64,000 nucleotides of DNA from Leisingera sp. NJS204 (lineage in GTDB: Bacteria; Pseudomonadota; Alphaproteobacteria; Rhodobacterales; Rhodobacteraceae), in NCBI RefSeq assembly GCF_004123675.1, contig NZ_CP035417.1, positions 1,355,501 through 1,419,500 of the forward strand, read 5' to 3'. Shown here one piece after another: positions 23,341 to 47,661 of this stretch. Each line of letters begins with the position of its first letter. Position 1 is the stretch's first letter. The translations under genes were made by a program, and so were the position numbers. The notes beneath the pieces are model-generated. The model had not been told where the DNA came from and did not search any database. It was given only the letters and a program-made list of their open reading frames with translations.

Positions 23341-23583
23341 GCGCTGCCCGCGACGCGCATTGCGCGGCGCCGCGCCCAACTGGGAAGGGCATCCGCAAGG
23401 ATGGGCTGGAACAGGCAGGAGTGCTTGCCGCCGTTGCCGACAGGAATGACAGGCCTGTTGCGCCGCGTCCAACCCGGTTTTTGCGCGGTGTTTCATATTT
23501 ATTCATCACCTTTGGTTACCTTGCCCCTGACGAGCGGCGCCAGGCGGTTAACTGTCTGGGCCGGTTTTACAGGAGACAGGCGC

Positions 23584-25347
23584 GTGAGCTTTACACCATA
23601 TGTGTTGGGCACCGGTATCAGCGGGTGGACCTTCCTGCAGCGGACCCGCGACCAGCAGCAGGAAATTTATGAGAAGTCGCCGGTCATCGATCGGACGGTG
23701 CAGGACTTCAATCAAAAAATCACCGGGATTCAGACTGCGGACGAGTTGCTGGATGACTACAACCTGCTGACCGTGACACTGGGCGCCTTTGGTCTGGACG
23801 AGGATATCGGCAACAGAGCATTCATCAAGAAAGTGCTCGAATCCGATGTCAGCGACTCGGGCTCTTTTGTGAACCGGCTCAACGACGTCCGGTATCAGGC
23901 GCTGGCGGAAACCTTTGGCTTCAACAGTCCGGATGGCCCGACGCTTCCCACCGCCAAGGCGGGCGCTGAATTTGCCAGTGTCGCCTCGCCGGATGATTTG
24001 CTGGCAAACGGCACCCTATTGCGCAAGGCGCTCGGCAATGTTGGCCTTGAAGGCCTCGAAAATAATCAGTTCTTTCTGCAGAAAGTTCTGGAATCCGACT
24101 TGGAAGACCCGGACTCCTTTGTCAACAAGCTGAGCAATCCCAAATATACCGAGTTTGCCCAGCAATTCAGTTTCAACAAGCCGCCGGTGTATGACAACAG
24201 CATTCAGGCGCTGGTCGGGGAGTTCAACGAACATACCGACGGCCTGGCAAGCGCGGATGAGCTGCTGGAGGATGAGAACCTTCTGCAAGCTGTCATCGAG
24301 ACCTTTGATCTGGAACGCACCAGCCCCGATTTCCTGCGCCGGGTTCTGAATTCAGATACCACCGATCCAGATTCCTTTGTGAACCAGCTGGAGGACACTA
24401 GGTATCTTGCGGTCTCAGAGGCCTTTGGGTTCGGCTGGCCGGATATCAATGAAATGACCGATCCGGATGAGCTGTTGTCAAACCCTGAGGTTCTGGAGCA
24501 TGCGCTGGATACATTCGGCCTTTTTGGCAGGGACGAGGCTGAGCTGCGCCAGATTCTGGAATCCGATTTGTCAGACCCGAACTCCTATGTGAACCAGCCG
24601 GAAAATGCTGCCTACTATGACTTTGCTGACGCGTTCCAGAACGGCTGGCCGGATCATGTCAGCAAGATGCAGGTGTTTTCCGATGACATCACGGACAAGC
24701 TGGGCACCTTCTCCGACCCAAGGGAGCTGGTCTTTGATATAAGCTTGTTTAATGCGACGCTGGATATCTTCGGCCAGAGCAAACGGAGCCTGGATTTTGA
24801 CACCGTGATCCGTGCCTTTGAATCTGACCTGTCGTCCAGCACGTCATATGCAAACTTGCATTACGACACCGGCCTGAAGGCCATGGCTCATGCGTTTTCC
24901 TTCAATGGGGGGGAAACCGGCCGGGAGTATCCTGAAGGCTTTGCCGAGCAACTTTCCGAGCTTTACACCACCCGCCAGTTTGAAATTGAGATCGGTGAGA
25001 GCGATCAGAACATGCGCCTGGCGCTGGCCTTTGAGCGCGAGCTGCAAACCGTTGCTGATGCAGGCGGCAGCGAAAACGCCCATTGGTACGGCATTATCGG
25101 TTCGCCGCCGCTGAAAACGATTTTTGAAAGCGCGCTGGCGCTGCCATCAGGTTTCGGCCAGCTGGATGTTGACAGGCAGGTGGAGGAGATGAAGGAGCGC
25201 TCGTTTGCTGCTTTTGGAACCACCCATCCTGCAGATTTTCTCGAAGCCGGGAAACTGGATGAATTCCGCAACAGGTTCTTGATGCTGGCAGATCTCAACG
25301 CGCCTTTCAACAGCGGGATCAGCGATCCGATTCTGTCGCTCTTCTGA
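23584..25347 (+). CDS. DUF1217 protein with five internal repeats
   Basis: 587 residues from GTG 23584, chosen because AGGAG lies 8 bases upstream and the protein then opens VSFTPYVLGTGISGWTFLQR, the usual DUF1217 start. Five degenerate units of roughly 60 residues begin near residues 51, 136, 225, 294 and 379; each has a (A/P)DELL helix, a VLESD-like turn, a (S)FVN segment and an AFGF-like end. A family-typical C-terminal domain follows (YTTRQFEIEIG, then MRLALAFERELQ). DUF1217 proteins with one or two units usually sit in flagellar clusters of roseobacters; none is here. No signal peptide is evident. Confidence 0.85.
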   Translation: MSFTPYVLGTGISGWTFLQRTRDQQQEIYEKSPVIDRTVQDFNQKITGIQTADELLDDYNLLTVTLGAFGLDEDIGNRAFIKKVLESDVSDSGSFVNRLNDVRYQALAETFGFNSPDGPTLPTAKAGAEFASVASPDDLLANGTLLRKALGNVGLEGLENNQFFLQKVLESDLEDPDSFVNKLSNPKYTEFAQQFSFNKPPVYDNSIQALVGEFNEHTDGLASADELLEDENLLQAVIETFDLERTSPDFLRRVLNSDTTDPDSFVNQLEDTRYLAVSEAFGFGWPDINEMTDPDELLSNPEVLEHALDTFGLFGRDEAELRQILESDLSDPNSYVNQPENAAYYDFADAFQNGWPDHVSKMQVFSDDITDKLGTFSDPRELVFDISLFNATLDIFGQSKRSLDFDTVIRAFESDLSSSTSYANLHYDTGLKAMAHAFSFNGGETGREYPEGFAEQLSELYTTRQFEIEIGESDQNMRLALAFERELQTVADAGGSENAHWYGIIGSPPLKTIFESALALPSGFGQLDVDRQVEEMKERSFAAFGTTHPADFLEAGKLDEFRNRFLMLADLNAPFNSGISDPILSLF

Positions 25348-25408
25348 CCCGTCGGCTGCGCTTTGGCTGTGGAGCAGCAATAGTTTCGCCCGGCTCAGAA
25401 GGCCGGCG

Positions 25409-25828
25409 CTATAGCGCTAGGCGCATGGTGATGCCGGTCACCCTGCTGCAGCCGGGATAAGCGCCTTCTGCGGTCTTGAAAAATCCCAGCCGGTCGAAGC
25501 TGCGGTGATTTTCCACAAGTTCGACCCTCGTTAGCAACTCAAGCGCCGGCAGGCCGGGATCCCTGACTCGCTTTGCCGCCAGGTCCTCTATCTGCCTTGC
25601 CCGGCCCGATCCGTGTCGGGCCGGATCGGCTGCCAATTTGCCCAGATACAGGCGGTCCGTCTTTGATATCAGGAATATGCAAGCCGCATGCAGGCTTCTG
25701 GCGGCCCGGATCTTGCTGCCGACCAGATAGAGATCCTTCCTTAGATCCACCGTCAGCCGGTGCATGGAAGATGGCTGATCAATGCGCCCGTCGATATAGG
25801 CAAAGCTGCGCCGGGTCAGGGCCGGCAC
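25409..25828 (-). pseudogene. GNAT acetyltransferase, N-terminally damaged
   Basis: The 139 codons from GTG 25828 match a GNAT acetyltransferase: LYLGKLAADPARHGSGRARQ covers beta-4 and a weakened acetyl-CoA loop, and ELVENHRSFDRLGFFKTAEG is the usual C-terminal part. The N-terminus is short. In-frame codons upstream (SRLAIRGVPALTRRSFAYID) still look like the family start, but they contain no ATG and meet a stop 13 codons up. Either a rare start is used or the gene has lost its beginning; I lean to a decaying gene. Confidence 0.55.
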
Positions 25829-26205
25829 GCCGCGGATCGCCAGCCTTGACCCGGCGGGGCTGTTTCACAGCTGGGCCACCCAGAGGGCGGGCCGGAAATA
25901 CTCCCGGCTGGCCAATAGCAGAAGGCAAGCGGTGCAGACAGCATGAGAAGCCGCAGAGAGGGAATGGCTAGGCATGCCGCTTTCCTGCAAGTGCCGGCCT
26001 TTGCCGCCTTGGACAGTTCTTATTGCTTCGCTGCATCCCGCTTCTGACTGAAGTCCAGAGTACCGCAATGCTCCGGTCGGGATACTGCGGGCTGGTGGAA
26101 CAATACCGCCGCGCCGGGCGCATTTGCGCCCGGCCACGCCCAACTGAGACTGTCAATCTGCGATTGACCGGGAACAGGCGGGAGAGCCGCCGCCGGGACA
26201 GATGC
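25829..26205. other. Intergenic region, no gene recognised
   Basis: 377 bp between the GNAT remnant and the end of purD. Short open frames in it show no family features. The only structure seen is a perfect 9-bp hairpin (GCCGGGCGC / GCGCCCGGC, 26113-26134), which may end the purD transcript although no T-run follows. Confidence 0.5.
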
Positions 26206-34332: not shown

Positions 34333-35523
34333 ATGAGCGACAACTGGAACAGCCGCACCAAGCTGGTTCACGCAGGTACCCGCCGCAGCCAGTACAACGA
34401 GGTGAGCGAAGCGATCTTCCTGACCCAGGGCTTTGTCTACGAGAGTGCCGAGCAGGCCGAGGCGCGGTTCATCGAGACCGGCCCGGATGAGTTCATCTAT
34501 GCCCGCTACGGCAACCCGACCGTCGATATGTTCGAAAAGCGCATAGCAGCGCTGGAAGGGGCTGAGGACGCCTTTGCCACTGCTTCCGGCATGGCGGCGG
34601 TCAACGGCGCGCTGACCTCGCTGGTGAAAGCGGGCGATCACATCGTGTCGGCCAAGGCGCTGTTCGGATCCTGCAACTATATCCTGGCGGATGTTCTTGG
34701 CCGCTTCGGGGTCGAGGTAACCTTTATCGACGGCACTGATCTGGATGCCTGGCGGCAGGCCGTGCGCCCGGACACCAAGGCGGTGTTTTTCGAGTCCATG
34801 TCGAACCCGACGCTGGAGGTGATCGATATTGCCGCGGTTGCAAAGATCGCCCATGCAGCAGGCGCGACGGTGGTGGTGGACAACGTGTTCTCGACACCGG
34901 TGTTTTCCCGTGCGATCGAACAGGGCGCCGATGTGGTGATCTATTCCGCAACCAAGCATATCGACGGCCAGGGCCGGGCGCTTGGCGGGGTGGTGCTGGG
35001 CACCAAGGATTTCATCCGCGGCACGCTGGAACCCTATATGAAGCACACCGGCGGCAGTCTCAGCCCGTTCAATGCCTGGGTGATGCTGAAGGGGCTCGAA
35101 ACCATTGACCTGCGGGTCAACGCCCAGGCGGACAGCGCCCTGAAAATCGCCGAAGCGCTGGACGGCCATGCAGCGCTGGAGCGTACCATCTATCCGGGTC
35201 TGAAGGGTCACGCGCAGAACGCATTGGTGCAGGCTCAGCTGGGCGGCAAGGGCGGCACCGTGCTGTCGCTGGACCTGAAGGGGGGCAAGGACGCGGCGTT
35301 CAAGTTCCTGAACGCAATGACCATCCCGGTGATCTCCAACAATCTGGGCGATGCCAAATCCATCGCCACCCACCCGGCTACCACCACCCACCAGCGCCTC
35401 AGCGATGAGCTGAAGGCGGAGCTGGGCATCACGCCCGGCCTGGTGCGCTTTTCGGTCGGGCTGGAGGACGCGGAAGACCTGATCGCCGACCTGAAAGCGG
35501 CGCTGGAGGCGGCGCAGGGCTGA
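34333..35523 (+). CDS. metZ: O-succinylhomoserine sulfhydrylase
   Basis: PLP enzyme making homocysteine from O-succinylhomoserine and sulfide, in methionine synthesis. 396 residues beginning MSDNWNSRTKLVHAGTRRSQ. YARYGNPTVDMFEKRIAALE is the PLP-phosphate region, VVVDNVFSTPVFSRA has the ring-stacking Asp, and VIYSATKHIDGQGRALGG carries the PLP lysine. The HIDGQGR variant is typical of MetZ rather than MetB/MetC. GAGGAGA precedes the ATG. Expression is set by the SAM-II riboswitch. Confidence 0.95.
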   Translation: MSDNWNSRTKLVHAGTRRSQYNEVSEAIFLTQGFVYESAEQAEARFIETGPDEFIYARYGNPTVDMFEKRIAALEGAEDAFATASGMAAVNGALTSLVKAGDHIVSAKALFGSCNYILADVLGRFGVEVTFIDGTDLDAWRQAVRPDTKAVFFESMSNPTLEVIDIAAVAKIAHAAGATVVVDNVFSTPVFSRAIEQGADVVIYSATKHIDGQGRALGGVVLGTKDFIRGTLEPYMKHTGGSLSPFNAWVMLKGLETIDLRVNAQADSALKIAEALDGHAALERTIYPGLKGHAQNALVQAQLGGKGGTVLSLDLKGGKDAAFKFLNAMTIPVISNNLGDAKSIATHPATTTHQRLSDELKAELGITPGLVRFSVGLEDAEDLIADLKAALEAAQG

Positions 35524-35603
35524 GGCGCGCACCCGCCGTCTGCTTCTTTCTGGTGGAAGAAATCTACCGTGTTGCTTTGGTCGATACTTAGCCCCCACGC
35601 CAG

Positions 35604-35654
35604 CATGGGCAAAGAGCGTTTAGACATCGAGTGCCGGAACGCTCTTTGCCCATG
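35604..35654. repeat. 17-bp perfect inverted repeat
   Basis: CATGGGCAAAGAGCGTT (35604-35620) and its exact complement (35638-35654) enclose a 17-nt loop. It lies 80 bp after metZ and 55 bp before the IS1182-type element. It may end the metZ transcript or be a leftover mobile-element tip. T-run support is weak. Confidence 0.85.
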
Positions 35655-35708
35655 AGATTTTCAGCAAAAGCAGCTGTTCGTCTTTCGCGCAGCGGAAACA
35701 ACGTGAGA

Positions 35709-37263
35709 GCCGATGTCGTTGAAAAACCCGTTGTTTTTGGCGGCATACCCGGGGTTATGGACCTGATTTCCTGGAGTAATCTGTGGTTGCACCGCTCTTT
35801 TTACGCAGCGGCAGGCACTATTGGCTTCAGTTTGGCCGGTTTCCTGAGGTTCTGGGCGGTGGCTGCTAAGGTGAACTCGTCCTGGACGCCACATGGGCCT
35901 CGTAGCCGGAGCCGCCCCAGCCCGAGGATGCGTTTGAGGTGCGCGAAGAGCATTTCGACCTTCTGACGCCGCCTCTGGGCGGTCGGGTTGTAGCCGGAGG
36001 CCGTGCAGAGCCGGGCGAAGTCTCTCACGATCTCATATTTGTCTCGATTGATGCTGCGCGTTGCAGTGTCGGGGCAGCATTTTTGCTTCGATAGGCAGGT
36101 CTGGCTGTCGAGTTTTGAGCTGCGGTACTGGCGGCGGCCGGGCTTGGGGTTGTGTCTTCTGGGATCAGAATAATTTCGCCGGGTGTGGCGCAGTTCTTTA
36201 CCTTCCGGGCAGATGTAGCGGTCATTTTCTTCGTCCCATGTGAAGTCGGATCGCGACCGGATGCCATCCTTGCGCTTTGAATGATCAAAGACCGGAATGA
36301 ACGGGAGTATCTTCCGCTTGAGCGTCAGCCAAACCAGATTATCAGATGAGCCATAGGCGGTGTCCGCTGCGGCCCGATCAGGCTTCAGGCCAAAGCGCTC
36401 TTCCGTCCGGCCGGTCATCTTGCGCATGGCACCCGCCTCTGCCTGCCGGATCGAGCGGCTGGCATCCACGTCAAGAATGATCCCATGATCCGTGTCGATC
36501 AGGTAATTGTCTGAATAGGCAAAGAATGCAGGTCCTTTGCGAGCCGCGGTCCATTGGCTGGCGGGATCGGCATGTGCCGTGAACTTGGGTGTTGTCTCAC
36601 CGGCCGCACCGAATGCTGCGTCATCGAGAGTGTCGAGATACTCGCGCACCGCCCGTGATATATCATTGGGATCGATCTCCCTGGCCACCCATTCTTCGGG
36701 ATTGCTGGAGTTCTGCTTCTGAACATCCGCAACAATCAGGCTGGCATCCACGGCGACCCCCTGGCCACCGACAAGCCCTTCCGGCACGCATCTTTCAACA
36801 GTCGTCTCAAAAACATGACGCAGCAGATCACTGTCGCGGAAGCGACCGTGCCGGTTCTTGGAGAATGCCGAGTGATCCGGGATGCGGTCAGTCAGATCAA
36901 GGCGGCAAAACCAGCGACAGGCCAGGTTCAGATGCACCTCTTCGCAAAGCCGCCGTTCGGATCGGATGCCAAAGCAGTAGCCAACCACAAGCATGCGGAT
37001 CATTGGTTCAGGATCGGCCGATGGCCGGCCCGTGCGGCTGTAGAAACCCGCCAGATGACCCCGGATGCCGCTCAGATCGAGATGCCGGTCAATCGATCGC
37101 AGCAGATGATCCTACGGGACATGCTCCTCCAGAGAGAAGTCGTAAAAGAGTTCGGCCTGCGCCGCCTGCCTCGGTCCCGTCATCGCCAACCCTCCCGCTT
37201 AATGCGGATATTGAATCAGCCACTTAATCGCCGATCAAGTAGGAGTTTTTCAACGACATCGGC
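35709..37263 (-). mobile_element. IS1182-type insertion sequence
   Basis: Bounded by a perfect 19-bp inverted repeat: GCCGATGTCGTTGAAAAAC at 35709-35727 and its complement at 37245-37263. Length about 1,555 bp, normal for the family. Contains one transposase gene on the minus strand, interrupted by an amber codon. I see no clear target duplication in the flanks, so one side may have been rearranged. Confidence 0.9.
35801..37183 (-). pseudogene. IS1182-family transposase with an in-frame amber codon
   Basis: Starting at ATG 37183 (after GGGAGGG) the protein reads MTGPRQAAQAELFYDFSLEE, then HVP and TAG at 37114-37112, then DHLLRSIDRHLDLSGIRGHL and on without a break to 35801, 459 sense codons in all. 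The N-terminal DUF772 part, RMLVVGYCFGIRSERRL, and the DDE region (VAVDASLI, DTAYGSSDNL) are recognisable. CAG to TAG is the simplest lesion. A shorter 400-residue product could start at ATG 37003 but would lack part of the N-terminal domain. Confidence 0.87.
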
Positions 37264-37499
37264 CAATTATTGACCGATGCTGTTCGCAACTGAGATTTTT
37301 GCGTGGCTTGCGGAAGTCGCTCATATGTATCCGGCCTTTTTGTCGGCTCGCGGGCCGTTGCCACTGTGGGTTACGAACGCGCCTTGGTCTCATTACTGTC
37401 CGGATCTGTGACGACCCAATTGGCTCTCAGACTTTGGGGGCGTCGTTTCTCCGTTCCAAGCTATTCTCCTTCGCGAACTTCGGTGACCCTTTAGGCGCT
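37264..37499. other. Non-coding stretch between IS1182 and the IS110 remnant
   Basis: 236 bp without a credible gene; probably the non-coding end of the IS110-type element. No inverted repeats stand out, as expected for that family. Confidence 0.4.
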
Positions 37500-38557
37500 T
37501 CAAATTGCGCCCAGAGGCTCATTCCTGTTTGGCTCACAGGTTGAGCCATAGCGCAAAACACTCCATGCGGTGCGGGCCAGTTTGTTAGCCAAGGCAACGG
37601 CGGCCTTGTTATGCGGCATGCGGCCGACAGCGCTTCTTAACCAAGGTTCAAAGTCCAAAGCATCCCAGCGATGAGGGCGCATCAGGATGACATTGGCGGC
37701 CTGAACGAGCAGCATTCGCAAATAGCCATTGCCGCGCTTGCTGATCCGACCAAGGATTGTTCTCCCACCAGTACTGAATTGGCGCGGCACGAGACCGACC
37801 TAATCGGCAAAGTCCCGGCCGCGGTCAAACACGTCGCCCTGGCCAATTGCCGCGACTATCGCAGTCGAGATCAGGCGGCCGATCCCCGGGATGGTCATAA
37901 TGTTGGCGCTGTTCTCCTCCGACCGGCCGATCTCTTCTATTTCCGATGAGATCGCCTTGATCCTTTCGTCGATCCAGAGCCAGTCGCCATAGAGCCCCAG
38001 GAGGGTGGTGCGCATCCGCGGTGAGATTTCTGCCCGCCGGTTTTCAAGGATCGCCTCAAACGAACTCTGCAGTGCATGTCTTCCAGCGCGCACGGTGATG
38101 CCTTGCTCAATCAAGAACGCCCGGATCTGATTGCTTGTCGCGGCGCGCCACAAGCCTGGAGCGCACGCGGTGCAGCGCTTGCAGGTCCAACTGATATTGG
38201 CTCTTTTCGGCAACCGTGCGCAAGTTCGGCCTCATCGCCGCCTCTGCAATCGCTTCCGCGTCGTTGTAGTCGTTCTTCTGGCCCTTCTTGAAGGGCTTGA
38301 CGTAAATCGCCGGGATGATCCGAGGCTCGAAACCAAGCTCTCGCAACATACGACTGACAAAATGAGCGCTCATACAAGCCTCCATGCCGACGACGCATCG
38401 CGGAAGCTTTCAAAGTTCGGCTTCAGCGCTGACCGTTTAATCTTCTTGCGTAAAACACGCTCGCCAGCATGATCAAAACCAACGAGATGGAAGGTTTCCT
38501 TCCCGACATCGACGCCGATGAGCCGTCGTCGCCTGAAAACCAAATGTGCGAAAGATA
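37500..38557 (-). pseudogene. IS110-family transposase, multiply broken
   Basis: Pieces of one transposase lie in order in different frames. The RuvC-like N-terminus (LIGVDVGKETFHLVGFDHAG) is followed by a frameshift near 38405. Then come GMEACMSAHFVSRML and KNDYNDAEAIAEAA, a second frameshift near 38135, and the transposase_20 domain with TIPGIGRLISTAIVAAIG. An amber codon at 37802-37800 interrupts FAD-VGLVPRQF, where the family usually has Trp. The C-terminus ends at 37500. At least three lesions make it inactive. Confidence 0.9.
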
Positions 38558-38646
38558 TTTGACAGTTGAGCTGCCCCCTGAATTTCGGACACTGACGTAA
38601 GCTATGATTTGTTGTCTGCTGGTCTTCGACGAAGAGGAGATCAGAG

Positions 38647-38940
38647 ATGTCGAAACGGAAGAACCACTCGCCCGAGTTCAAGGCGAAAGCCGCGCTTGAG
38701 GCTTTGAAGGGTGAGCGAACTGCGGCTGAGCTTGCCAGCCAATTCGGCGTCCATCCCACGATGATCCACAGCTGGAAACGCGCTCTGCTGGAAGGCGCGT
38801 CCGGCGTGTTTGAACACGGCGGAAAGAAGTCCCCAGAGATCGACGAGGAGCAGGTCAAAGAACTGCACGCGAAGATCGGGGAGCTGGCTGTCGCCAACGA
38901 TTTTTTGTCACGAAAGCTCAAGCCGTGGACCGGCAAGTGA
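38647..38940 (+). CDS. IS3-family transposase OrfA
   Basis: 97 residues: a helix-turn-helix region (HSPEFKAKAALEALKGERTA then ELASQFGVHPTMIHSWKRAL) and a C-terminal leucine-zipper-like part. This is the DNA-recognition half of the IS3 transposase. It overlaps OrfB, which is in the -1 frame; the AAAGCTCAAG region near the overlap is where frameshifting would occur. Confidence 0.9.
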   Translation: MSKRKNHSPEFKAKAALEALKGERTAAELASQFGVHPTMIHSWKRALLEGASGVFEHGGKKSPEIDEEQVKELHAKIGELAVANDFLSRKLKPWTGK

Positions 38941-39837
38941 GGCGCAAGATGGTTGAGCCTGCCAATACCAACCTGTCGATTGGCAAGCAGTGCAAGCTGC
39001 TGTCGATCTCGCGGTCGTCGTTTTACTGCACGCCCAAGGGCGAGACGGCGATGAACCTGATGTTGATGCGCCGGATCGAGGAACAGTTCCTGGAAACGCC
39101 GTTCTTTGGTGTCCGCCAGAAGACTTGGCACCTCCGAAACGACGGGCACCTTGTGAACGAGAAGCGCATCCGACGCTTGATGCGGCTGATGGGCTTGATG
39201 CCGATCTATCAGAAACCAAACACCAGCAAAGCAGCGAAAGGGCACAAGACCTATCCCTATCTGTTGCGTGGTCTACGCCTGGAGCGTCCCAATCAGGTGT
39301 GGTGTGCCGACATCACGTATCTGCCAATGCGCAGGGGCTTTCTGTATCTGGCGGCGATCATGGATTGGCACACCCGAAAGGTGCTGGCCTGGCGCCTTTC
39401 GAACACGCTGGAAGCAGACTTCTGCGTCGAGGCACTGAACGAGGCCATCGCCAGGTTTGGCCCGCCGGAAATCATGAATACGGATCAGGGCAGCCAGTTC
39501 ACATCTTTTGCCTGGACGAGCAGATTGCGCCGATCCGGCGTGCGGATCTCCCCTCTCGCGCATGCACACATGCGCTGCCGGGCAGCGGATGGATGGCAAG
39601 GGGCGCTTCCTCGATAACATCTTCGTCGAGCGGCTCTGGCGGTCGTTGAAATACGAATGCGTCTGCCTGCAGGCCTGGGAGGCCGGATCAGAGGCGAAGG
39701 CCGGCGTTGGGAAATGGATCGATTTCTACAACCGAAAACGCCCACACTCCGCCCTTGGCGGCAAACCCCCAGCCGTGGTCTTTTGGCTGAGAAAAGAAGA
39801 AACCCAAACCGATCAGCAGGAGCAGAGAGTAGCTTAA
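38925..39837 (+). pseudogene. IS3-family transposase OrfB, disrupted by a 37-bp insertion
   Basis: The rve integrase half. The first part runs through VWCADITYLPMRRGFLYLAA (first Asp) and MNTDQGSQFTS (second Asp) to SGVRIS. Then 37 extra bases (39552-39588) shift the frame. The second part resumes at MDGKGRFLDNIFVERLWRSL (third catalytic Glu) and ends at 39837. Without the insert SGVRIS joins MDGKGR exactly, as in intact relatives. Therefore inactive. Confidence 0.88.
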
Positions 39838-39889
39838 CCTACGTCAAAACCTGTCCAAACATTGGGGAGTAGCTCAAGTACCCCTGATG

Positions 39890-40085
39890 CGCACATCCCG
39901 CAAGAAACGCATCGGCGTGGGCCGTTCGCTCAATCGCCTGCGCAACCTGGTCGAGCGGTGCTTCTACAAGCTCAAGAACGCCAGGCGCGTCGCAACACGC
40001 TACGTCAAGACGGCTGAGAACTTCCTAGGCTTCATCGACATCACGTCGATCCGCCTTTGGCTCCGACATTTGGCAACATGACCTA
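39890..40085 (+). mobile_element. IS5/IS427-type element, right-end fragment 1
   Basis: Only the transposase C-terminus remains (LRNLVERCFYKLKNARRVAT, ending RLWLRHLAT) with the right tip CAACATGACC. Its left side is cut by the IS3 element. It ends directly at the complete IS5 copy. Confidence 0.85.
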
Positions 40086-40146
40086 GGCGGTGTTGACAAA
40101 AGGGATTCACAACGCACCGCAGGCGTGATTCAAGCTGGTATCTTCG

Positions 40147-40578
40147 ATGGAGACCAGCTTGGCACGAGATCTGATGACGGATGAGGAATGGGCGTTTTTT
40201 GAACACTTCATCCTCGCTATCCGCGCTGCAATCGGGCGCAAACCGGCCAACCACCGCCTTGTTCTGGATGGGATTTTCTGGATATCCAGAACCGGGTCCC
40301 CGTGGCGGGACCTACCTGAGGAGTTCGGCAAATGGTCCAGCGTTTACCGCCAGTTCAGGCGCTGGACCCTGGCAGGGCTTTGGGAGGATATCCTGGATGC
40401 CCTGAACCAGAGCAGAGCCGTCCCCGACGCCCTGCAAATGGTTGATAGCACCGTGATCCGCGCGCACCACCAAGCCGCTGGCGCAAAAGGGGGACTCCGG
40501 AACAGGGTTTTGGCCGCTCAAGAGGTGGGTTTTCGACCAAGATCCACCTCCGCGTCAACGCGCACGGGTTGCCAATGA
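40147..40578 (+). CDS. IS5-family transposase, first frame (OrfA)
   Basis: 143 codons: DUF4096-type N-terminus (LARDLMTDEEWAFFEHFILA) and the first catalytic Asp in MVDSTVIRAHHQAAGAKGG. The slippery run GCAAAAGGGGG (40483-40493) lies at this point; a -1 shift there gives TPEQGFGRSRGGFSTKIHLR and continues into the second frame. The product made without shifting ends at 40578. Confidence 0.87.
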   Translation: METSLARDLMTDEEWAFFEHFILAIRAAIGRKPANHRLVLDGIFWISRTGSPWRDLPEEFGKWSSVYRQFRRWTLAGLWEDILDALNQSRAVPDALQMVDSTVIRAHHQAAGAKGGLRNRVLAAQEVGFRPRSTSASTRTGCQ

Positions 40579-40934
40579 GAACCGAGATCACGCCGGGGCA
40601 AACGTCAGATTACCTTGGCTTTGATCTTGTCATGGCTGACAACCTGCCCGAGCCGAAAGTGCTGCTGGCAGATCGTGGATATGACGCTGATCGCATTCGG
40701 GAAAACATGAACGAGCGCATTATCCAGCCGCAAATCCCGATGCGAAAGACCCGCAAGATGCGTGTTGGAGTGGATCATACGCTTTACCGGCTGCGCAATA
40801 TGGTCGAACGGTGCTTCAACAAGCTCAAGAACGCGCGCCGTGTCGCAACCCGTTATGACAAAACTGCTGAGAGTTTTCTGGGTTTCATCGACATCACGTC
40901 AATCCGCCTATGGTTCCGCCATTTGTCAACATGA
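40483..40934 (+). CDS. IS5-family transposase, second frame (OrfB)
   Basis: Entered by -1 frameshifting at A4G5 (40485-40493). Contains RSRGGFSTKIHLRVNAHGLP, the second Asp in VLLADRGYDADRIRE, and the Glu region LRNMVERCFNKLKNARRVAT, ending FRHLST. The fused protein would be near 260 residues and looks intact, so this is the one element here likely to be active. A stand-alone start at 40569 is possible. Confidence 0.82.
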
Positions 40935-40936
40935 CC

Positions 40937-41072
40937 TAGTCGAGAGATGCTTCAACAAATTGAAGAATGCCCGGCGTGTGGCAACCCGCTATGACAAGAC
41001 AGCCGAAAGCTTCCTCGGCTTCATAGACATCACTTCGATCCGCCTCTGGATCCGCCATTTGTCAACATGACC
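40937..41072 (+). mobile_element. IS5/IS427-type element, right-end fragment 2
   Basis: A third transposase C-terminus (LVERCFNKLKNARRVATRYD, ending RLWIRHLST) with right tip CAACATGACC at 41063-41072. Its first codons CTA-GTC-GAG span the TA where the complete copy sits, so an element apparently inserted inside this older copy. Confidence 0.85.
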
Positions 41073-41157
41073 TAAGCAAGGTGAAAATACATAAGCCAAG
41101 AGCTGTTGTCTGAACCGCCTAAATGGGACTCGTTTTCAAAACTGAACAGTTGGAATA

Positions 41158-42705
41158 TTATTGCGCCAAGTCGAGCGCGTATTCCTGATAGATGACTGGG
41201 CTAAAAATTGAATTCACTTGAACGGGGCGCTGGGGTAGCAAATCTGTCGCGAAAACCTTGGCGGCTTCGAAGTCTTTGGTTTTCAAAGACCTTAGATCCT
41301 CTGGGAAAGGGATTTGCGGTTGATTTTCAGTACGGCTGGCCAAATTGAAACCCCAGATGCCAAACGATGGAATCGGGATTTGGTAATTCGCAACTTCGGG
41401 AAAAACCGCTTTGAGGGTCTCAGAAACAGTCCAATAGGTGTGCGGCGAAAAGAACGGAGAGCTGCTTTGAGTCACAAGCGTACCATCTTCGGTCAGGACC
41501 GCAGCGACCATAGCATAGAATTCCACAGAATAGAGCTTGGACAGAGCTTCGTTGTGGGGGTCTGGGAAGTCGATAATGATCCGGTCGTACCGCTGGTCCG
41601 TTTCTTTAACAAAAAGAAAGGCATCCTGATTGTAGACGTGCAGCTGCGAGGCCTGCATGCTGCCCTTGTTCAAGCGGACCACCGGCGCAAAGTCTCTCCC
41701 CAAGTCCGTCATTGCAGGGTCGAGATCCACCAGGTCAATGCGCTCAACACTTGGGTGCTTTAGAATTTCCCGAATCGCCAGCCCATCTCCGCCCCCCAGG
41801 ACCAGAACGTTTTTTGCCGGTTTGCCCCAAGACATCACCGGATGCACCAAAGCTTCGTGGTAGCGGTATTCATCGGCCTCAGAAAACTGCAAATGCCCAT
41901 CAATATAGAGGCGCACATCGTTTGTCTTCCAGGTGTTTGTCACAACCAGCGTCTGATATTGTGATTGTTTGCGCCAGACGATGCGGTCGAAATAGAGATG
42001 GTCCTGGGCAAAGGCTGTGATCCAGCCTGCAGACAGAGTCAGGCCGAACAGCAAGGCCACTGCGGCCAGCACATAGCCCATCATACGCCGGGGAGCATCC
42101 AAATGGTCGCGCAACCACAATACGTTCAGAAGGGCAACTGCTGCATTGGTCAGGCCGATTGCAAAAGATGACGAAATCAGTCCCAATGAGGGCAGTAGCA
42201 GCAGTGGAAACATCACTGACCCGAGCAGCGCGCCAAGATAGTCTAGTGACAGCACGCCTGAAATCGACTCCCGGACTGTGGAGCCTTCCGACAGAACCCG
42301 GGTCAGCAAAGGAATTTCAAGCCCGACCAGAAACCCGATAGCCGAGATGAAGGTGAACATTCCCACTGTATAAAACCAGGGTGCCATCGGAAAGAGCATG
42401 AAAAGGGAGATGCTGCACAGCCCGCCAACCAGGGCCAGAATAATCTCTACCCGGACAAAGGCCTGGATCAGGTTTCCATTGATGAAACGTGAAACATATG
42501 ACCCAACCCCCATGGCGAACATAAAGAACCCGATTGTCAGCGAAAACTGATAAACTGAGTTGCCAAGCAGATAGCTGGAGACGGTCCCAATAATCAGCTC
42601 ATAGACGATCCCGCACAATGCCACCACAAGGATCGAACCCAGAAGAATTGCGCCCTGTCTCCGGGGTAAATCCTGATAACGGTTCAGGCTGGATGCCTCC
42701 GTCAT
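41158..42705 (-). CDS. Membrane-bound polyamine aminopropyltransferase (spermidine synthase-like)
   Basis: 515 residues. The first ~225 form about seven membrane helices (IVYELIIGTVSSYLLGNSVY opens the conserved membrane part). The rest is a spermidine-synthase Rossmann domain: NVLVLGGGDGLAIREILKH (decarboxy-SAM site), DLVDLDPAMTDL, VYNQDAFLFVKE and IIIDFPDPHNEALSKLYSVE (catalytic Asp). ADEYRYHEALVHPVM matches the substrate-binding gate. In other bacteria such fused proteins are known, but the substrate is often unclear. Last gene of a three-gene minus-strand run inside the island, with base use visibly poorer in GC than the core genes. Confidence 0.9.
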   Translation of the reverse strand: MTEASSLNRYQDLPRRQGAILLGSILVVALCGIVYELIIGTVSSYLLGNSVYQFSLTIGFFMFAMGVGSYVSRFINGNLIQAFVRVEIILALVGGLCSISLFMLFPMAPWFYTVGMFTFISAIGFLVGLEIPLLTRVLSEGSTVRESISGVLSLDYLGALLGSVMFPLLLLPSLGLISSSFAIGLTNAAVALLNVLWLRDHLDAPRRMMGYVLAAVALLFGLTLSAGWITAFAQDHLYFDRIVWRKQSQYQTLVVTNTWKTNDVRLYIDGHLQFSEADEYRYHEALVHPVMSWGKPAKNVLVLGGGDGLAIREILKHPSVERIDLVDLDPAMTDLGRDFAPVVRLNKGSMQASQLHVYNQDAFLFVKETDQRYDRIIIDFPDPHNEALSKLYSVEFYAMVAAVLTEDGTLVTQSSSPFFSPHTYWTVSETLKAVFPEVANYQIPIPSFGIWGFNLASRTENQPQIPFPEDLRSLKTKDFEAAKVFATDLLPQRPVQVNSIFSPVIYQEYALDLAQ

Positions 42706-42785
42706 AGCGACCTCTTTCAGTAGAATGAAGAATGGCCCGGACGCCGAAACGCATCCAGGCCTGCCGTTCGCGTTCGCGATCCGGA

Positions 42786-43373
42786 TTACTTGCCGGCACG
42801 CAGGCCGCCCGAGCGGGCGCTTGAAGGTGCCTTGTAGCTGGACCGCGGGGTGATTGTACGATTGTTGAAGCTTGCTTTTGTCACCCCGGCGGACCGCTGG
42901 CGGCTGATCAGCGAGCCGATCAGCGCACCGGCCAGAAATCCGGTCCCGGAGAACCGCAGGCCGGTCGAGTTTCCGCTCACATCCGAGGCGATCAGACGCT
43001 TGTTTTCCTCGTCGATTTCAACGGTGAAAACGTCACCTTCCTCACTGTCCTGAACCCCGTTTTCGTTTGCATCGGCAAAGCCCAGGAATTTCGCATCCTG
43101 CTGGGTTTCAAGACCAAGGGTTTGATCAAAGAACCGAGGTTCGGAGTTCATAACGTTTGTCAGATACTCTGTAAATTCCTTGATCTGCGAGTCGTCTGCC
43201 GTGGTAACATTGTTTTCACCTAAGAAGGCTTCGTAGTTCATCAGCGCATACTCGGTGCGGTCCAAGACCTGGCCCAGGTCCGCTGTCTGCTCTCTTTGGG
43301 GGGCAAGGAACATAGAGTAGGCAACAAAGCCAGCAATGCCAACAAATGCGATAGTTTTAATTTTTCCAAGCAT
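42786..43373 (-). CDS. Anchored protein with an EF-hand-like loop, unknown function
   Basis: 195 residues. An N-terminal membrane anchor or uncleaved signal (about 4-24, IKTIAFVGIAGFVAYSMFLA) is followed by a soluble domain with ADANENGVQDSEEGD near 100-114; the Asp-x-Asn-x-Asn-Gly spacing fits a calcium-binding EF-hand or dockerin-like loop. A second hydrophobic Gly-rich stretch (FSGTGFLAGALIGSLI, about 141-156) precedes a Ser/Arg/Gly-rich basic tail. I do not recognise the family. It lies 2 bp after the stop of the rhomboid-GNAT gene and is probably co-transcribed with it and the aminopropyltransferase. Confidence 0.78.
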   Translation of the reverse strand: MLGKIKTIAFVGIAGFVAYSMFLAPQREQTADLGQVLDRTEYALMNYEAFLGENNVTTADDSQIKEFTEYLTNVMNSEPRFFDQTLGLETQQDAKFLGFADANENGVQDSEEGDVFTVEIDEENKRLIASDVSGNSTGLRFSGTGFLAGALIGSLISRQRSAGVTKASFNNRTITPRSSYKAPSSARSGGLRAGK

Positions 43374-43375
43374 AT

Positions 43376-44716
43376 TCAGTTCTCTGTGTAAAATGCGGGG
43401 CAGTCTTTATCTTTCGGGGGCAATGAGCATGTCCACCAATCTTGCTGCAACCCCAAACTGTAAAAATCTTTCAGGCTGCCGCAAAATTTGAACCCTTGTG
43501 ATTGAAGAGCTGCACTATTTGCCGTTGAAAGATCCGATGGCAGCACCAGCACAGCCATGCGTGCGCCATTGACTGCAGCATCTGCCAGAACGGCTTCTGC
43601 CCCCTCTAGGCCTTTACCCGTTTCCTGCCATTTTAGACCAGCTACCTTGTCTCCTTCCGGCGCTTTTTCGGCCCCGGTGAACCGGATCCCATTGGAAACC
43701 TTCAGCTCTGGTGCGGGCGGGGCGGCCTGTTCATGGTTGACCAGCGCATAGATCATCTTGGCTTCTCCCGGTTCATGGTAATCCGGCACCCTTACTTCCA
43801 GATCCGCACCAAACTCTTCATACATACGGTGCGCGGCTGCATAGATCTGTTCACCGTCTTCCGCGTAGTCACTGGTTTCAATGAAGAGCTTTCGCATCTG
43901 ACTGTCTGTCAGTTTCTGCAGCAAGTCTGACATCATCTGCCGCCCCAGCCCCTGGCCGGCGCAGTCCTGGTCCAGATAAGTCCAGGACAACCATGCAACG
44001 CCATCGGCTTCGGTATCCGGAGTATATCCAGTCACACCAAGAATGCTGCTGCCCTGCTTAAGAATGAACATATTGCTGACACCCTGGCTGAGCATTGCGG
44101 CCTCTGCTTCTGCCGCGTCGTCTTCATCCGTTTGTGCAATGATTTCAACCACGCGGGAAAGGTGGTTGAGCACCATAGGCTTCAGCGCGGGTGCTTTGGT
44201 GCCAAAGAGATTTTCGAACATAAAGAATACCCCTCCCAGGGCGGCAGAAACAGCGTGGGAATAAATTGCGAGGCTTTCATCGGCGAAATGCAACTCGGCT
44301 GCAAGCAGCACCGCGCCCCAAAGCAGCAACCAGGGGCGCTGTTTCTTGGACGCCACTGACAGAGCAGCGTAGCTGCCAAGCCCATAGGCCACACCAGAGG
44401 CTCCCGCAAAGCCGGGTCCAACAATGACGAGTTCCGCCCCTGTCCCCAACACAGTGCATGCAAGCATTAATAATACAGTGCCCATATGGCCGAGGCGTGG
44501 CTCTACCTGCCATCCTGCCAAGGCGATGATCAAAGCGTTGACGGCCAAATGGAGCACCGATCCGTGACGCAACACGCCTGCCAAAAGCTCAGCAAAGCTC
44601 TGCAGCCCTACTGTGCCTGAGACTGGCCCAAGGTAGAGATACGCCCAAAGTATCAATATGTTGAACCCGAGGGATGCCGGTGAAACCAGAAGAAAGTAAC
44701 CAACTTTGTGTATCAT
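43376..44716 (-). CDS. Rhomboid-like membrane protease fused to a GNAT acetyltransferase
   Basis: 446 residues. Residues 1-175 form about six membrane helices with rhomboid active-site signatures: HLAVN (His56, Asn60), GASGVAYG (Ser107 nucleophile) and YSHAVSAALGG (His154). The short rhomboid core resembles rhombosortases. Residues ~185-335 are a GNAT domain: WLSWTYLDQDCAGQGLGRQM holds the acetyl-CoA loop (GQGLG), followed by KLFIETSDYAEDG. The last ~110 residues look like a degenerate second GNAT-like or scaffold domain. Two catalytic activities in one chain at the membrane are unusual. Function unknown; first gene of a three-gene run. Confidence 0.8.
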   Translation of the reverse strand: MIHKVGYFLLVSPASLGFNILILWAYLYLGPVSGTVGLQSFAELLAGVLRHGSVLHLAVNALIIALAGWQVEPRLGHMGTVLLMLACTVLGTGAELVIVGPGFAGASGVAYGLGSYAALSVASKKQRPWLLLWGAVLLAAELHFADESLAIYSHAVSAALGGVFFMFENLFGTKAPALKPMVLNHLSRVVEIIAQTDEDDAAEAEAAMLSQGVSNMFILKQGSSILGVTGYTPDTEADGVAWLSWTYLDQDCAGQGLGRQMMSDLLQKLTDSQMRKLFIETSDYAEDGEQIYAAAHRMYEEFGADLEVRVPDYHEPGEAKMIYALVNHEQAAPPAPELKVSNGIRFTGAEKAPEGDKVAGLKWQETGKGLEGAEAVLADAAVNGARMAVLVLPSDLSTANSAALQSQGFKFCGSLKDFYSLGLQQDWWTCSLPPKDKDCPAFYTEN

Positions 44717-44906
44717 GATGAAAGGTTATCCGAAATTAACTCAGCCCAGTGCTGTCCCCTGTATTGCCCAATGCCATTTGTCGGCACTTCATGGCAGGCT
44801 TTAACCGTGAAACTGGCATAGAAGTATGCATCCATTTAGTATCCACTCACTGGAGCAAACCCTCCGGCTTCCAGCCGGATCCGCTTAAGCGTGAAAGAAT
44901 CCTGTT

Positions 44907-44974
44907 ATGCGCTTACCCTCCGGAAAATGAGCCGCAGCCGGGTCGAAGGCTCATTTTCCGGAGGGTAAGCGCAT
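44907..44974 (+). promoter_or_regulatory. 27-bp perfect hairpin covering the tnpA ribosome binding site and start
   Basis: 44907-44933 is the exact complement of 44948-44974, with a 14-nt loop. The right arm contains GGAGGGTAAGCGC and the first two bases of the tnpA ATG (44973). In mRNA the site would be buried, keeping transposase low, as known for the leader hairpin of IS200. Confidence 0.9.
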
Positions 44975-45388
44975 GCAATATGATACCGGCGAACACTGCG
45001 TTTTCTACCACCGCTACCATATCGTATGGTCGACCAAATACCGCTACAAAGTGCTGCGCGGGGCATTGCGCCTGCGGTGCGCGACATTTGCCGCCAGGTC
45101 TGCGCCGAGAACGGGGTCGCCATCTCGCGCGGGGTGCTGTCGAGCGACCATGGGCATATGTTCGTGCCGGTACCGCCGAAACTCGCCATCTCCGATCTGG
45201 TGCGCAAGATGAAGGGCCGTTTGTCTTACCGGGTGCAACGGGAATTCCCTGCGATCCGCAGGCGCTACTGGGGCTGCCGGTTCTGGGGCCGCGGGTATTT
45301 TTCAACCACCAACGGCGCCATCACCGAAGACATCGTACTTCAGTACCTGGAAAATCACATTGCCGATCCTACCGGCGCCAGCCGGTAG
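44973..45388 (+). pseudogene. IS200-family Y1 transposase TnpA, frameshifted
   Basis: Frame 1 gives MQYDTGEHCVFYHRYHIVWS and YRYKVLRGALRLR, then fails near 45077. Another frame continues with VRDICRQVCAENGVAISRGV to 45388. Adding one G to CGGTG (giving CGGGTG) joins them, about 138 residues. The HUH motif is DHGHMF, with Gly where a hydrophobic residue is usual. The catalytic Tyr is in VLQYLENH. Inactive as read, unless the lost G is a sequencing error. Confidence 0.85.
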
Positions 45389-45625
45389 TCGTTCAGTTGA
45401 ATTGTTCCTATCGATATCCTGATCCTTCGTCATCTGCGGCCGCGAAGGCCCTTCTGCCGTTTGGATAGCCGGACATATGGCGCGGCGGGTGGCGTGATAT
45501 TTTGTGACCGTAAAACCGGCCGCCTTCAATCTGACAGAGGCTGGATTGAGGGCAATATCAAACACATAATTCCCGGGGGTGAATTGAGCCGCAGGCTCAA
45601 GTGGGGGACAGCGCCCCCGCATATT
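45389..45625. other. Right flank of the IS200-type element
   Basis: No gene recognised. Contains the short right-end hairpin (45584-45600) and, next to it, GGGGG-ACAGCG-CCCCC (45603-45618), which may help end the convergent M24 gene. Confidence 0.45.
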
Positions 45626-46876
45626 TCACATCTCCCAGGGAAACGTGTCGAGCCGCACCGGCCGGTCCGCGGTGACCAGTACCTGGGTTTCCAGCTTGAC
45701 CGACTCGGATCCTTTCTCGCCGATCAGGCTTTCAATGCAGATCACCATGTTTTCCTCGAACTGACCGCCGTGGGCGCCGTCAAAGTCCACATGCAGCGGC
45801 ACCACCGGCCATTCGTCAGCCATGCCGACGCCATGGGCTGCCAATGAGTAACGGTAGGGTTGATAGGCGTCCGGGATCTGCCAGCTTTTGGCGTTGAACC
45901 CTGCGAAACTCAGACCCGGCTGCAGCAGCGCCATGTTGTGTTCGATCTGCGCCCGTGCCGCGGTGTACAGCCGCTTCTGGGTGTCTGTCATCGGCACATA
46001 GCCGCAGGTCCAGCTGCGCGAGAGATCCGCGCAATAGCCATAGGGGCCGATCATGTCGGTATCGAATGAGATCATCTCTCCCTCGCGGCATTCGCGAGAT
46101 GAGCATTCCTTGTACCAGGGGTTGGTGTTGGGCCCGCAGGTGAGAAGCTTGGTTTCCAGCCATTCGCCGCCCGAGCGCGCATTCTCGAAATGCAGATGCG
46201 CCCACAGCTCCTGTTCGGTGACACCGGGCACCGAATGCTCGTAGATCCGCGCCATGCCGGCCTCGCAGACGCGGATGGTCCAGCGCATCAGATCGATCTC
46301 GTCTGCCGATTTGATGGCGCGGGCGGTCTCGGTAATCTGACCGCCGTCGATGACCTGAAGGCCGTGCTCAGACAGCGCATGCACGCCGTCGGGTTCCATC
46401 CGGTCGACGCCCAGCCGCAGGTTGCCGCCGCCGTATTGCTTGATCAGATCCGCGATCTCCGCCGCCCAGGGGGACAGTCTGTCCGCGGCCTTGTCACCAG
46501 CGCACATGAACATCCAGCCGATGGCGTTCCTGACCTCGTCAATGCCGGGCAAGCCATCGTTCAGATGCTCGCAGCCCTTGAATTCGAACATGATGCCGGG
46601 GCCGCCGTTCAGGATCAGCGCATAGCGGATCGGGTTATGGGCGGTCCAGATCGACATGTTGGAACAGTCGAACGCATAGCGGATATTGACCGGGTCATAG
46701 AGCAGGAGGCCCGCCACGTCCTGGCGTGCCATCTCGTCCCGCAGCCGTTGCAGGCGGTAGGCGCGGGCGCGGTCCAGAACATCCTGGCCGATCGGTGACT
46801 TCAGCGGTTTGTCTGCACCTTCCGCATTGAGGAAAGTGCGTTTGCGCTCGTCCTTGAAAACAGCCAGCCCGGTCAT
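45626..46876 (-). CDS. DddP-like M24-family protein (possible DMSP lyase or relative)
   Basis: 416 residues of the creatinase/Xaa-Pro peptidase fold. It shares long stretches with the DMSP lyase DddP of roseobacters: DPVNIRYAFDCSNMSIWTAH, then NPIRYA, RSGGEWLETKLLTCGPNTNP and FDTDMIGPYGYCADLSRSW. The metal ligands expected from DddP are present with matching spacing: Asp272, Asp274, Asp284, His348, Glu382, Glu396. DddP cleaves DMSP to DMS and acrylate. Whether this paralogue does so is unproven; the cysteine-rich strand after the Asp ligands differs from the enzyme I know. It overlaps the oxygenase gene by four bases. Confidence 0.82.
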   Translation of the reverse strand: MTGLAVFKDERKRTFLNAEGADKPLKSPIGQDVLDRARAYRLQRLRDEMARQDVAGLLLYDPVNIRYAFDCSNMSIWTAHNPIRYALILNGGPGIMFEFKGCEHLNDGLPGIDEVRNAIGWMFMCAGDKAADRLSPWAAEIADLIKQYGGGNLRLGVDRMEPDGVHALSEHGLQVIDGGQITETARAIKSADEIDLMRWTIRVCEAGMARIYEHSVPGVTEQELWAHLHFENARSGGEWLETKLLTCGPNTNPWYKECSSRECREGEMISFDTDMIGPYGYCADLSRSWTCGYVPMTDTQKRLYTAARAQIEHNMALLQPGLSFAGFNAKSWQIPDAYQPYRYSLAAHGVGMADEWPVVPLHVDFDGAHGGQFEENMVICIESLIGEKGSESVKLETQVLVTADRPVRLDTFPWEM

Positions 46877-47661
46877 GAGGCGCGCCCGTAAAAGCCAATG
46901 TTCTCCGCGTCGGTGAACCGCACGCCGGGGCGTTCGTAGAAGGTGAAGACGGCGATCACCCGCGTCTTGTGCCCTTTCACAGTGCCCACCCGGTGGGGGG
47001 AGTTTTTGCCGCGGAAGATGTTGAGGGTGCCGGGGGCCAGGGTGATGGCGCGCATGTTGGGATCTTTGCCTGCCAGCAGCCGCTCGACGCCCTCATAATT
47101 AGGGTCGTCATCGCTGCGCAGCTCGGGGCTGTAGATGAACTCACCGCCCGCATCCGGTGCTTGCAGCAGCATGGTGGTGGTGAACTCGGAGCGGTCGAAA
47201 TGCCAGTTCAGCGCCTGCTCGGCCCCATAGGACATGATGTTCAGCCGCGCCAGAGGGTCGTCCATGGTGTAAAGCGCGGGCTTGTCCATGGTGGCGGCCA
47301 GGAACGCGGCAAAGGGCGGCCAGTCATAGAGCCGCAGCACCGGCGAGTCCGGGAACTGGTCGGCGCAGAGGGTGAAATTGGAGGTCTCAACTTTTTTGAG
47401 CGCCGGATGGTCCGGCGCCAGCCCCTCAACCGTGTCTTTGAAGTAGACGTTGTGTTCGCGCTTGTGGTGGAAGCTCTCGGTCTTAAACTTGCCCTGCAGC
47501 GCATCTGCGGCGCCTTGGGCCACTTCCGTCTTCATCAGACCGTCCAGGCTGAACATGCCGTCCGCAGCCAGCTCGGCGCGGCAGCGGTCCACCAGGGCCT
47601 GCCATTCGGGGCTGCCGGGGCGGTCGAGCGGGTAGCGGTCGAGATCGAGAATATCGCGCAT
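46873..47661 (-). CDS. 2OG-Fe(II) dioxygenase of the BesD/HalD-like family
   Basis: 262 residues. LNWHFDRSEFTTTMLLQAPD gives the iron ligands His154 and Asp156; the distal His223 is in SPHRVG and Arg234 (2-oxoglutarate) in HKTRVIAVF. Relatives include amino-acid halogenases, in which the Asp is replaced by Gly; Asp is kept here, so hydroxylation is expected. Surrounding residues (GGEFIYSPELR) match that family. Substrate unknown, perhaps a free amino acid or small osmolyte. Its stop overlaps the start of the DddP-like gene (ATGA), so the two form one unit. Confidence 0.82.
   Translation of the reverse strand: MRDILDLDRYPLDRPGSPEWQALVDRCRAELAADGMFSLDGLMKTEVAQGAADALQGKFKTESFHHKREHNVYFKDTVEGLAPDHPALKKVETSNFTLCADQFPDSPVLRLYDWPPFAAFLAATMDKPALYTMDDPLARLNIMSYGAEQALNWHFDRSEFTTTMLLQAPDAGGEFIYSPELRSDDDPNYEGVERLLAGKDPNMRAITLAPGTLNIFRGKNSPHRVGTVKGHKTRVIAVFTFYERPGVRFTDAENIGFYGRAS

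Follow-up and report, generated by a model that had tools for sequence, protein, structure and literature searches.

The window, a stretch of 64,000 nucleotides from Leisingera sp. NJS204 (contig NZ_CP035417.1, positions 1,355,501 to 1,419,500 of the forward strand), carries on its minus strand, at 41158-44716, three co-directional open reading frames (ORFs) that represent three quarters of a conserved four-gene cassette, speD-RHG-SML-SPE, from which the window copy has lost speD. The products are a rhomboid-GNAT fusion (RHG, 446 aa), a membrane-anchored protein of 195 aa (SML) and a membrane SpeE (SPE, 515 aa), and the genes are separated by 2 bp (RHG-SML) and 80 bp (SML-SPE). We tentatively propose that SPE acts outside the cytoplasm and may aminopropylate the C-terminal lysine of SML, with RHG as an accessory. 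The family of SPE, its catalytic residues, the gene order, the conservation of the tail and the purifying selection are read from the sequences themselves.

An earlier note on this DNA had described the triplet as a mobile, AT-rich three-gene system made up of a rhomboid-GNAT fusion, an EF-hand-like anchored protein and a membrane aminopropyltransferase. The spacing and orientation of the ORFs, the GC content (0.53-0.54 at the triplet vs about 0.60-0.67 over most of the window), the mobile setting and the domain scores of RHG and SPE, which exceed their cut-offs, all bear this description out, and the EF-hand-like loop is conserved in 27 aligned rows, yet without a match to an EF-hand family. 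As to the system, a conserved unit with fixed order was recovered, but it does not consist of three genes only, speD normally preceding them.

Among 248 genomes of the family, SML, RHG (E <= 1e-30) and SPE at 62-100% identity occur in the same 5, a coincidence beyond chance; in 15 further genomes SPE alone was found, at 39-44% identity. Of the 367 genomes searched in the class, none but that of the window had SML or RHG. Scanning genome_contigs with SML gave 26 loci (4 of them from genomes already in the family set), and 23 have all four genes in the order speD-RHG-SML-SPE, the other three being L018, with SPE masked, L035, from Roseibium, and L040, at a contig end with no speD seen. These loci belong to Roseobacteraceae, Paracoccaceae, one Roseibium and one Neomegalonema. 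With the SPE proteins of the cassette designated clade 1, speD was found in 24 of 27 clade-1 loci; the upstream gene in L009 is AdoMet_dc by Pfam, and all 24 cassette SpeDs contain AESHI..HTWPE, which we take to be the usual SpeD processing site. No trace of speD was found in the window, nor was the gene found in the congener G626, which also has the cassette. The single S-adenosylmethionine (AdoMet) decarboxylase gene of the window genome lies elsewhere, next to (by eye) a gene for a 287-aa SpeE-like protein that is 26-32% identical to the SPE proteins, and a second SPE of this genome lies in a DUF4178-DUF4178-peptide-DUF350-SPE operon (L061). The window, G626 and Roseibium SPEs group together in a supported clade, which makes the three speD-less copies nearest kin. 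In Roseibium, SML and SPE are accompanied by a shorter RHG (269 aa, L035 7148-7957) that has the GNAT part but no rhomboid domain, and speD is absent.

The triplet is best explained, from sequence comparison, as a variant, found in Rhodobacteraceae sensu lato, of the system that couples an AdoMet decarboxylase to a membrane spermidine-synthase-like protein; Li et al. in 2019 reportedly described such membrane-fused proteins with AdoMet decarboxylase. The likeness lies in the score of SPE, which exceeds the NF002956 cut-off, and in the speD that the cassette normally holds; the difference lies in the partners, RHG and SML, with neither DUF350 nor DUF4178 in any of the 27 loci. The adjacent speD that marks this system was not found with the window cassette. 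Two cassette copies are irregular: Ruegeria sp. HKCCD8929 has SML in tandem (L028 8001-8588 and 8694-9320), both copies ending RSGGLRAGK, and the SML of Jannaschia marina (L024 6272-6850) has an in-frame stop with the tail frame still there. L024 was left out of the SML alignment (A4), L040 out of the RHG alignment (A3), and L018, with 5,000 masked bases, out of the SPE counts and the tail rule described below.

SPE matched NCBIfam NF002956 'polyamine aminopropyltransferase' (PRK03612) with 582.6 bits (cut-off 472), and its hydropathy plot shows a hydrophobic N-terminal domain. The assignment as a canonical spermidine synthase SpeE was rejected, the score for TIGR00417 being 165.1 bits vs a cut-off of 249.55. 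The GGGDG motif, D379 and D382 are invariant in the 27 clade-1 sequences and in 7 of 7 sequences of clade 2, a second group from Rhodobacteraceae. In 67 sequences (27 + 7 + 21 + 12), Lys and Arg lie mostly in the loops before transmembrane (TM) segments 1, 3, 5 and 7, and the loops before TM2, 4 and 6 are nearly without them, the highest mean being 0.75 in the 12 gamma-type sequences. With seven TM segments, a number also given for this domain in a passage of PMC11237479, and the N-terminus inside as judged from the loop charges, the transferase domain would lie outside, which suggests that the catalytic domain of SPE faces outward. Chemistry outside the cytoplasm agrees with the lipoprotein-like starts of two tail-carrying proteins encoded near other SPE genes (L146 and L153) and with the twin-arginine/lipobox-like starts of three Pfam Amino_oxidase proteins encoded beside SPE, both features being seen by eye.

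The last residue of SML is Lys in all 27 aligned copies, and similar endings were found beside SPE genes outside the cassette. In clade 2, a small ORF with a single TM segment (about 50 residues from the likely start) lies directly upstream of DUF350 in 20 of 20 loci and ends Val-Lys or Ile-Lys in each, the linker before varying in length and sequence; when clade 2 was inspected blind to the last residue, 22 of 24 ORFs in 22 locus rows (17 genomes) ended in K. More distant SPE loci, which comprise five plasmid records (6 of the 13 with an SPE match were fetched) and 28 genomes from a phylum sample of 299 (all 31 with a match were assigned to a group), have a lysine-ended tail carrier in 29 of 33 cases. 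Depending on the locus, the tail belongs to a small peptide, to a protein that is lipoprotein-like or anchored at its N-terminus, or to a DUF4178 protein in which a TM segment and the tail stand at the C-terminus; the endings include GGK, SGK, RGK, SHK, THK, GHK, AHK and HGK. In all, 49 of the 53 non-cassette SPE loci contain an anchored protein whose tail is rich in Gly/Ser/Arg and has Lys as its last residue.

A rule that ignores the last residue was applied to 79 loci. It selected ORFs of at least 45 residues with a hydrophobic segment, on the same strand within 3.6 kb of SPE, in which the 20 residues before the last include 6 or more Gly/Ser, no more than 1 Asp/Glu and no more than 6 Arg. 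K was last in 62 of the 74 ORFs selected: 15 of 16 in clade 2 (20 loci), 26 of 33 in clade 1 (26 loci) and 21 of 25 in the others (33 loci). Among the controls, K was last in 3 of 27 opposite-strand ORFs, in 2 of 14 that lie farther off and in none of 8 from 110 kb of DNA that lacks SPE. The three opposite-strand ORFs (L104, L141 and L143) resemble the same tails read the other way, but overlap longer ORFs; among ORFs with no longer overlapping ORF, K was last in 41 of 46 on the same strand vs 0 of 6 on the opposite strand. DUF350 and DUF4178 were each detected in 0 of 27 clade-1 and 20 of 20 clade-2 loci and in 9 and 13, respectively, of the other 33, and for RHG (or its GNAT part) the counts in these three groups are 27 of 27, 0 of 20 and 0 of 33; the ORFs of the window, which is outside the 27 loci, show neither DUF. 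Since DUF350/DUF4178 and RHG are each confined to some of the groups, the common element of these operons, apart from SPE, is the lysine tail. By gene content, RHG occupies the place often taken by DUF350/DUF4178 in other SPE operons, and these comparisons indicate that the partners can be swapped while the transferase and the lysine tail stay.

The tail may also be read without being modified: SPE could aminopropylate a small molecule or a lipid amine, with the lysine tails keeping the partner near SPE as a signal for docking or for binding anionic lipids. This is a possible explanation, if a doubtful one. Residues 158-195 of SML are strongly basic (mean 8.4 K/R and 0.07 D/E), and a docking peptide whose last lysine stays free could be equally invariant; yet plain charge binding should tolerate Arg as the last residue, whereas K dominates, and the clade-2 linker before the last two residues varies whereas the last residue does not.

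SML has no Pfam or NCBIfam family over its cut-off; as an EF-hand family it was rejected by Pfam, in which only SdrD_B and SARAF appeared at E <= 1, both below cut-off. In its DxNxNGxxDxxE loop, D101, N103, D109 and E112 are present in 27 of 27 rows and N105 in 26 of 27. The model (predicted local distance difference test, pLDDT, 83) consists of an N-terminal helix, a well-predicted domain at about 31-180, and a flexible end of low confidence at 191-195; fold comparison yielded no convincing match. The anchor is predicted to be N-in/C-out, and an acidic domain lies between it and the tail.

RHG matched Pfam Rhomboid (38.3 bits, cut-off 22.6) and Acetyltransf_1 (32.8 bits, cut-off 20.7), and its profile matches GlpG chains (E 5e-14). 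In the alignment of 26 rows, Ser107, His154, His56 and Asn60 each reach at least 90% conservation. RHG resembles GlpG in this profile match and in its Ser/His dyad, and differs from it in the GNAT extension and in that Gly108 of GxSG is not fixed, Ala or Ser replacing it in 8 of the 25 rows that contain the rhomboid. The model (pLDDT 87) has six rhomboid-like helices and alpha/beta domains; the best Foldseek match of the GNAT domain, which is predicted to be cytosolic, was 2r7h (E 2e-10). Residues 327-446, for which Pfam gave no match when they were searched alone, are perhaps a second GNAT-like domain, judging from the model. RHG is not assigned as a rhombosortase (TIGR03902, 25 bits vs a cut-off of 84), and, in a check for a SpeG-like spermidine acetyltransferase, no acetyltransferase family of NCBIfam exceeded its cut-off.

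The loop of SML, its acidic domain and the conserved rhomboid Ser/His would also suit a calcium-regulated envelope sensor, in which a Ca2+-binding SML would control SPE, and RHG would cut SML or a different protein and modify a cytosolic regulator through its GNAT domain; the failure to find a convincing SML fold match and the one lineage without rhomboid domain make this unlikely. The scheme of the earlier note, with polyamine synthesis by SPE at the membrane, acetylation by GNAT and cleavage of SML by the rhomboid, draws on the conserved active-site motifs of SPE, the rhomboid Ser/His and the genes staying together, and is very unlikely. Classical rhomboid substrates have a TM orientation opposite to that predicted for SML, which, with the rhomboid-less Roseibium cassette, speaks against SML as a substrate; the variable Gly108 and the higher dN/dS (ratio of non-synonymous to synonymous substitution rates) of the rhomboid part (0.29, vs 0.06 for the first GNAT part) also stand against the scheme. 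Polyamine synthesis with acetylation is unlikely because bacterial homologues of membrane-fused spermidine-synthase-like proteins are reported, in a passage of PMC12803844, not to be involved in spermidine or spermine synthesis; the genome has, moreover, the other speD beside the SpeE-like gene, and acetylation of the SPE product would have to join a GNAT domain predicted to be cytosolic to an SPE domain predicted to be outside.

In the preferred though still doubtful reading, aminopropylation of SML, SpeD (that of the cassette, or in the window genome probably the one encoded elsewhere) would make decarboxylated AdoMet; this donor would pass through the TM domain of SPE, which would move aminopropyl groups to the C-terminal lysine of SML and not to putrescine. 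Anchored, and equipped with an EF-hand-like loop and a flexible basic tail, SML would thus carry protein-bound aminopropyl or oligo-propylamine at the membrane, and RHG, with a cytosolic GNAT and a periplasm-facing rhomboid domain, may have an accessory role. The wider claim, that membrane-fused spermidine synthases generally act outside the cytoplasm and aminopropylate the C-terminal lysine of a dedicated anchored partner, SML being a domain-elaborated form and RHG a lineage-specific accessory, is rather doubtful.

Several points weigh against the preferred reading. 1) On the side of the membrane, the TM limits were set by hand, two outer loops have just one or two residues, and three hydropathy maxima in SPE residues 151-197 were counted as two segments; an eighth segment would flip the side of SPE, and the mixed charges after TM7 do not decide. 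The glycine-rich hydrophobic stretch of SML (about 141-157) could be a second TM segment, and strongly basic tails alone fit the inside. 2) On the donor and the product, a transferase outside the cytoplasm requires exported decarboxylated AdoMet, and the window copy has lost speD; in addition, deletion of a fungal membrane-aminopropyltransferase fusion lowered, but did not abolish, spermine in another study, as stated in a passage of PMC12803844. 3) On the tails, no lysine tail was found in 4 of the 33 distant loci (L137, L147, L150 and, at a contig edge, L119); of the 29 distant carriers, 21 fit the blind rule and 8 do not, most of these 8 having been found by seeking a final K. Overlap with longer ORFs in other frames affects 21 of the 62 K-ending ORFs and likewise 7 of the 12 others, and related sequences are not independent, the clade-1 counts being copies of one family.

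Operons of the PspA/CesT group comprise a 7TM-spermidine synthase, DUF350, a lipoprotein and DUF4178, and aminopropylation of other substrates has been raised for them in a passage of PMC11237479, in whose main text the words 'lysine' and 'rhomboid' do not occur. The cassette is like this group in having a 7TM-fused synthase with a membrane-anchored partner and unlike it in having neither DUF in its loci (PspA and CesT not being searched for). Protein lysines that carry propylamine units, as proposed for SML, are also found in diatom silaffins, whose oligo-propylamine lysines have been suggested, in a passage of PMC3820600, to be made by AdoMet decarboxylase and an aminopropyltransferase; silaffins differ in being eukaryotic and in having many internal lysines. 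Among the titles and abstract openings listed in literature searches, none dealt with a rhomboid-GNAT cassette or with lysine-ended partners. Membrane spermidine-synthase-like enzymes are common (31 of the 299 genomes sampled from the phylum), and a lysine-ended partner would pin their candidate acceptor to one residue. If the proposal is true, bacteria have a protein-tethered polyamine and a protein modification that uses decarboxylated AdoMet, and AdoMet decarboxylase serves beyond free polyamines.

The window cassette sits in an insert rich in insertion sequences (IS) that is absent from the six congeners examined. Transposase genes flank the triplet on both sides, and the insert holds transposases of several IS families. 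SML was found in 2 of 21 genomes of the genus, the window genome and G626, and the DddP-like gene that flanks the insert in 11 (these two and nine others). In the six of those nine that were fetched, the DddP-like gene and a Cys/Met-metabolism gene (window 34333-35523) are adjacent, which identifies the insert, the same two genes being about 10 kb apart in the window. Further dips in GC content lie at 23-26 kb (about 0.57 at 23001-26000) and 35-41 kb. In G626 (L094, L074), the gene left of the window insert lies about 1 Mb from the cassette, and a rearrangement therefore seems to have passed through the site. Features of the locus are listed in Table 1.

Table 1. Coordinates of the features, in the window unless another locus is given.
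Feature	Position	Strand	Basis or remark
RHG, rhomboid-GNAT fusion, 446 aa	43376..44716	-	ORF, Pfam, alignment, model
Rhomboid domain of RHG, residues 1-171	44204..44716	-	Pfam Rhomboid, GlpG profile match, model helices
RHG Ser107	44396-44398	-	
RHG His154	44255-44257	-	
GNAT domain of RHG, about residues 177-326	43739..44188	-	Pfam Acetyltransf_1, Foldseek
C-terminal part of RHG, residues 327-446	43379..43738	-	alpha/beta in model
SML, membrane-anchored, C-terminal lysine, 195 aa	42786..43373	-	ORF, alignment, model
EF-hand-like loop of SML, residues 101-112	43038..43073	-	alignment
C-terminal tail of SML, residues 180-195, last residue Lys	42789..42836	-	alignment
SPE, membrane-fused spermidine-synthase-like aminopropyltransferase, 515 aa	41158..42705	-	Pfam, NCBIfam, PDB matches
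Hydrophobic part of SPE, residues 19-230, read as seven TM	42016..42651	-	hydropathy, charges; limits set by hand
Aminopropyltransferase domain of SPE, residues 238-463	41317..41994	-	Spermine_synth 280-461, TIGR00417 238-463, PDB
IS200-type transposase (Y1_Tnp)	45026..45388	+	on the side where relatives have speD
IS4/5-type transposase split over two ORFs	40147..40934	+	on the SPE side
Stretch at 95.6% DNA identity to congener G626	41074..44839		
Insert of about 10 kb relative to six congeners	35560..45570		
Flavin amine oxidase beside SPE	L103 6445-8061		
Flavin amine oxidase beside SPE	L140 6949-8706		
Flavin amine oxidase beside SPE	L143 1662-3341		

Between the window genome and G626, dN/dS was 0.09 for SPE, 0.07 for SML and 0.22 for RHG, with 0.12 for the DddP-like gene as control; these ratios indicate that all three genes are under purifying selection, still so without a cassette speD. 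The synonymous rate dS (G626 locus L074) was 0.12-0.13 for the cassette, lower than the 0.215 of the control, and the cassette copies may therefore have parted later than their hosts, as judged with one control gene only. The DddP-like gene of the window (45626-46876) scores 367 bits against a DddP cut-off of 600 and overlaps a gene (46873-47661) that matches the Pfam family HalD (halogenase D).

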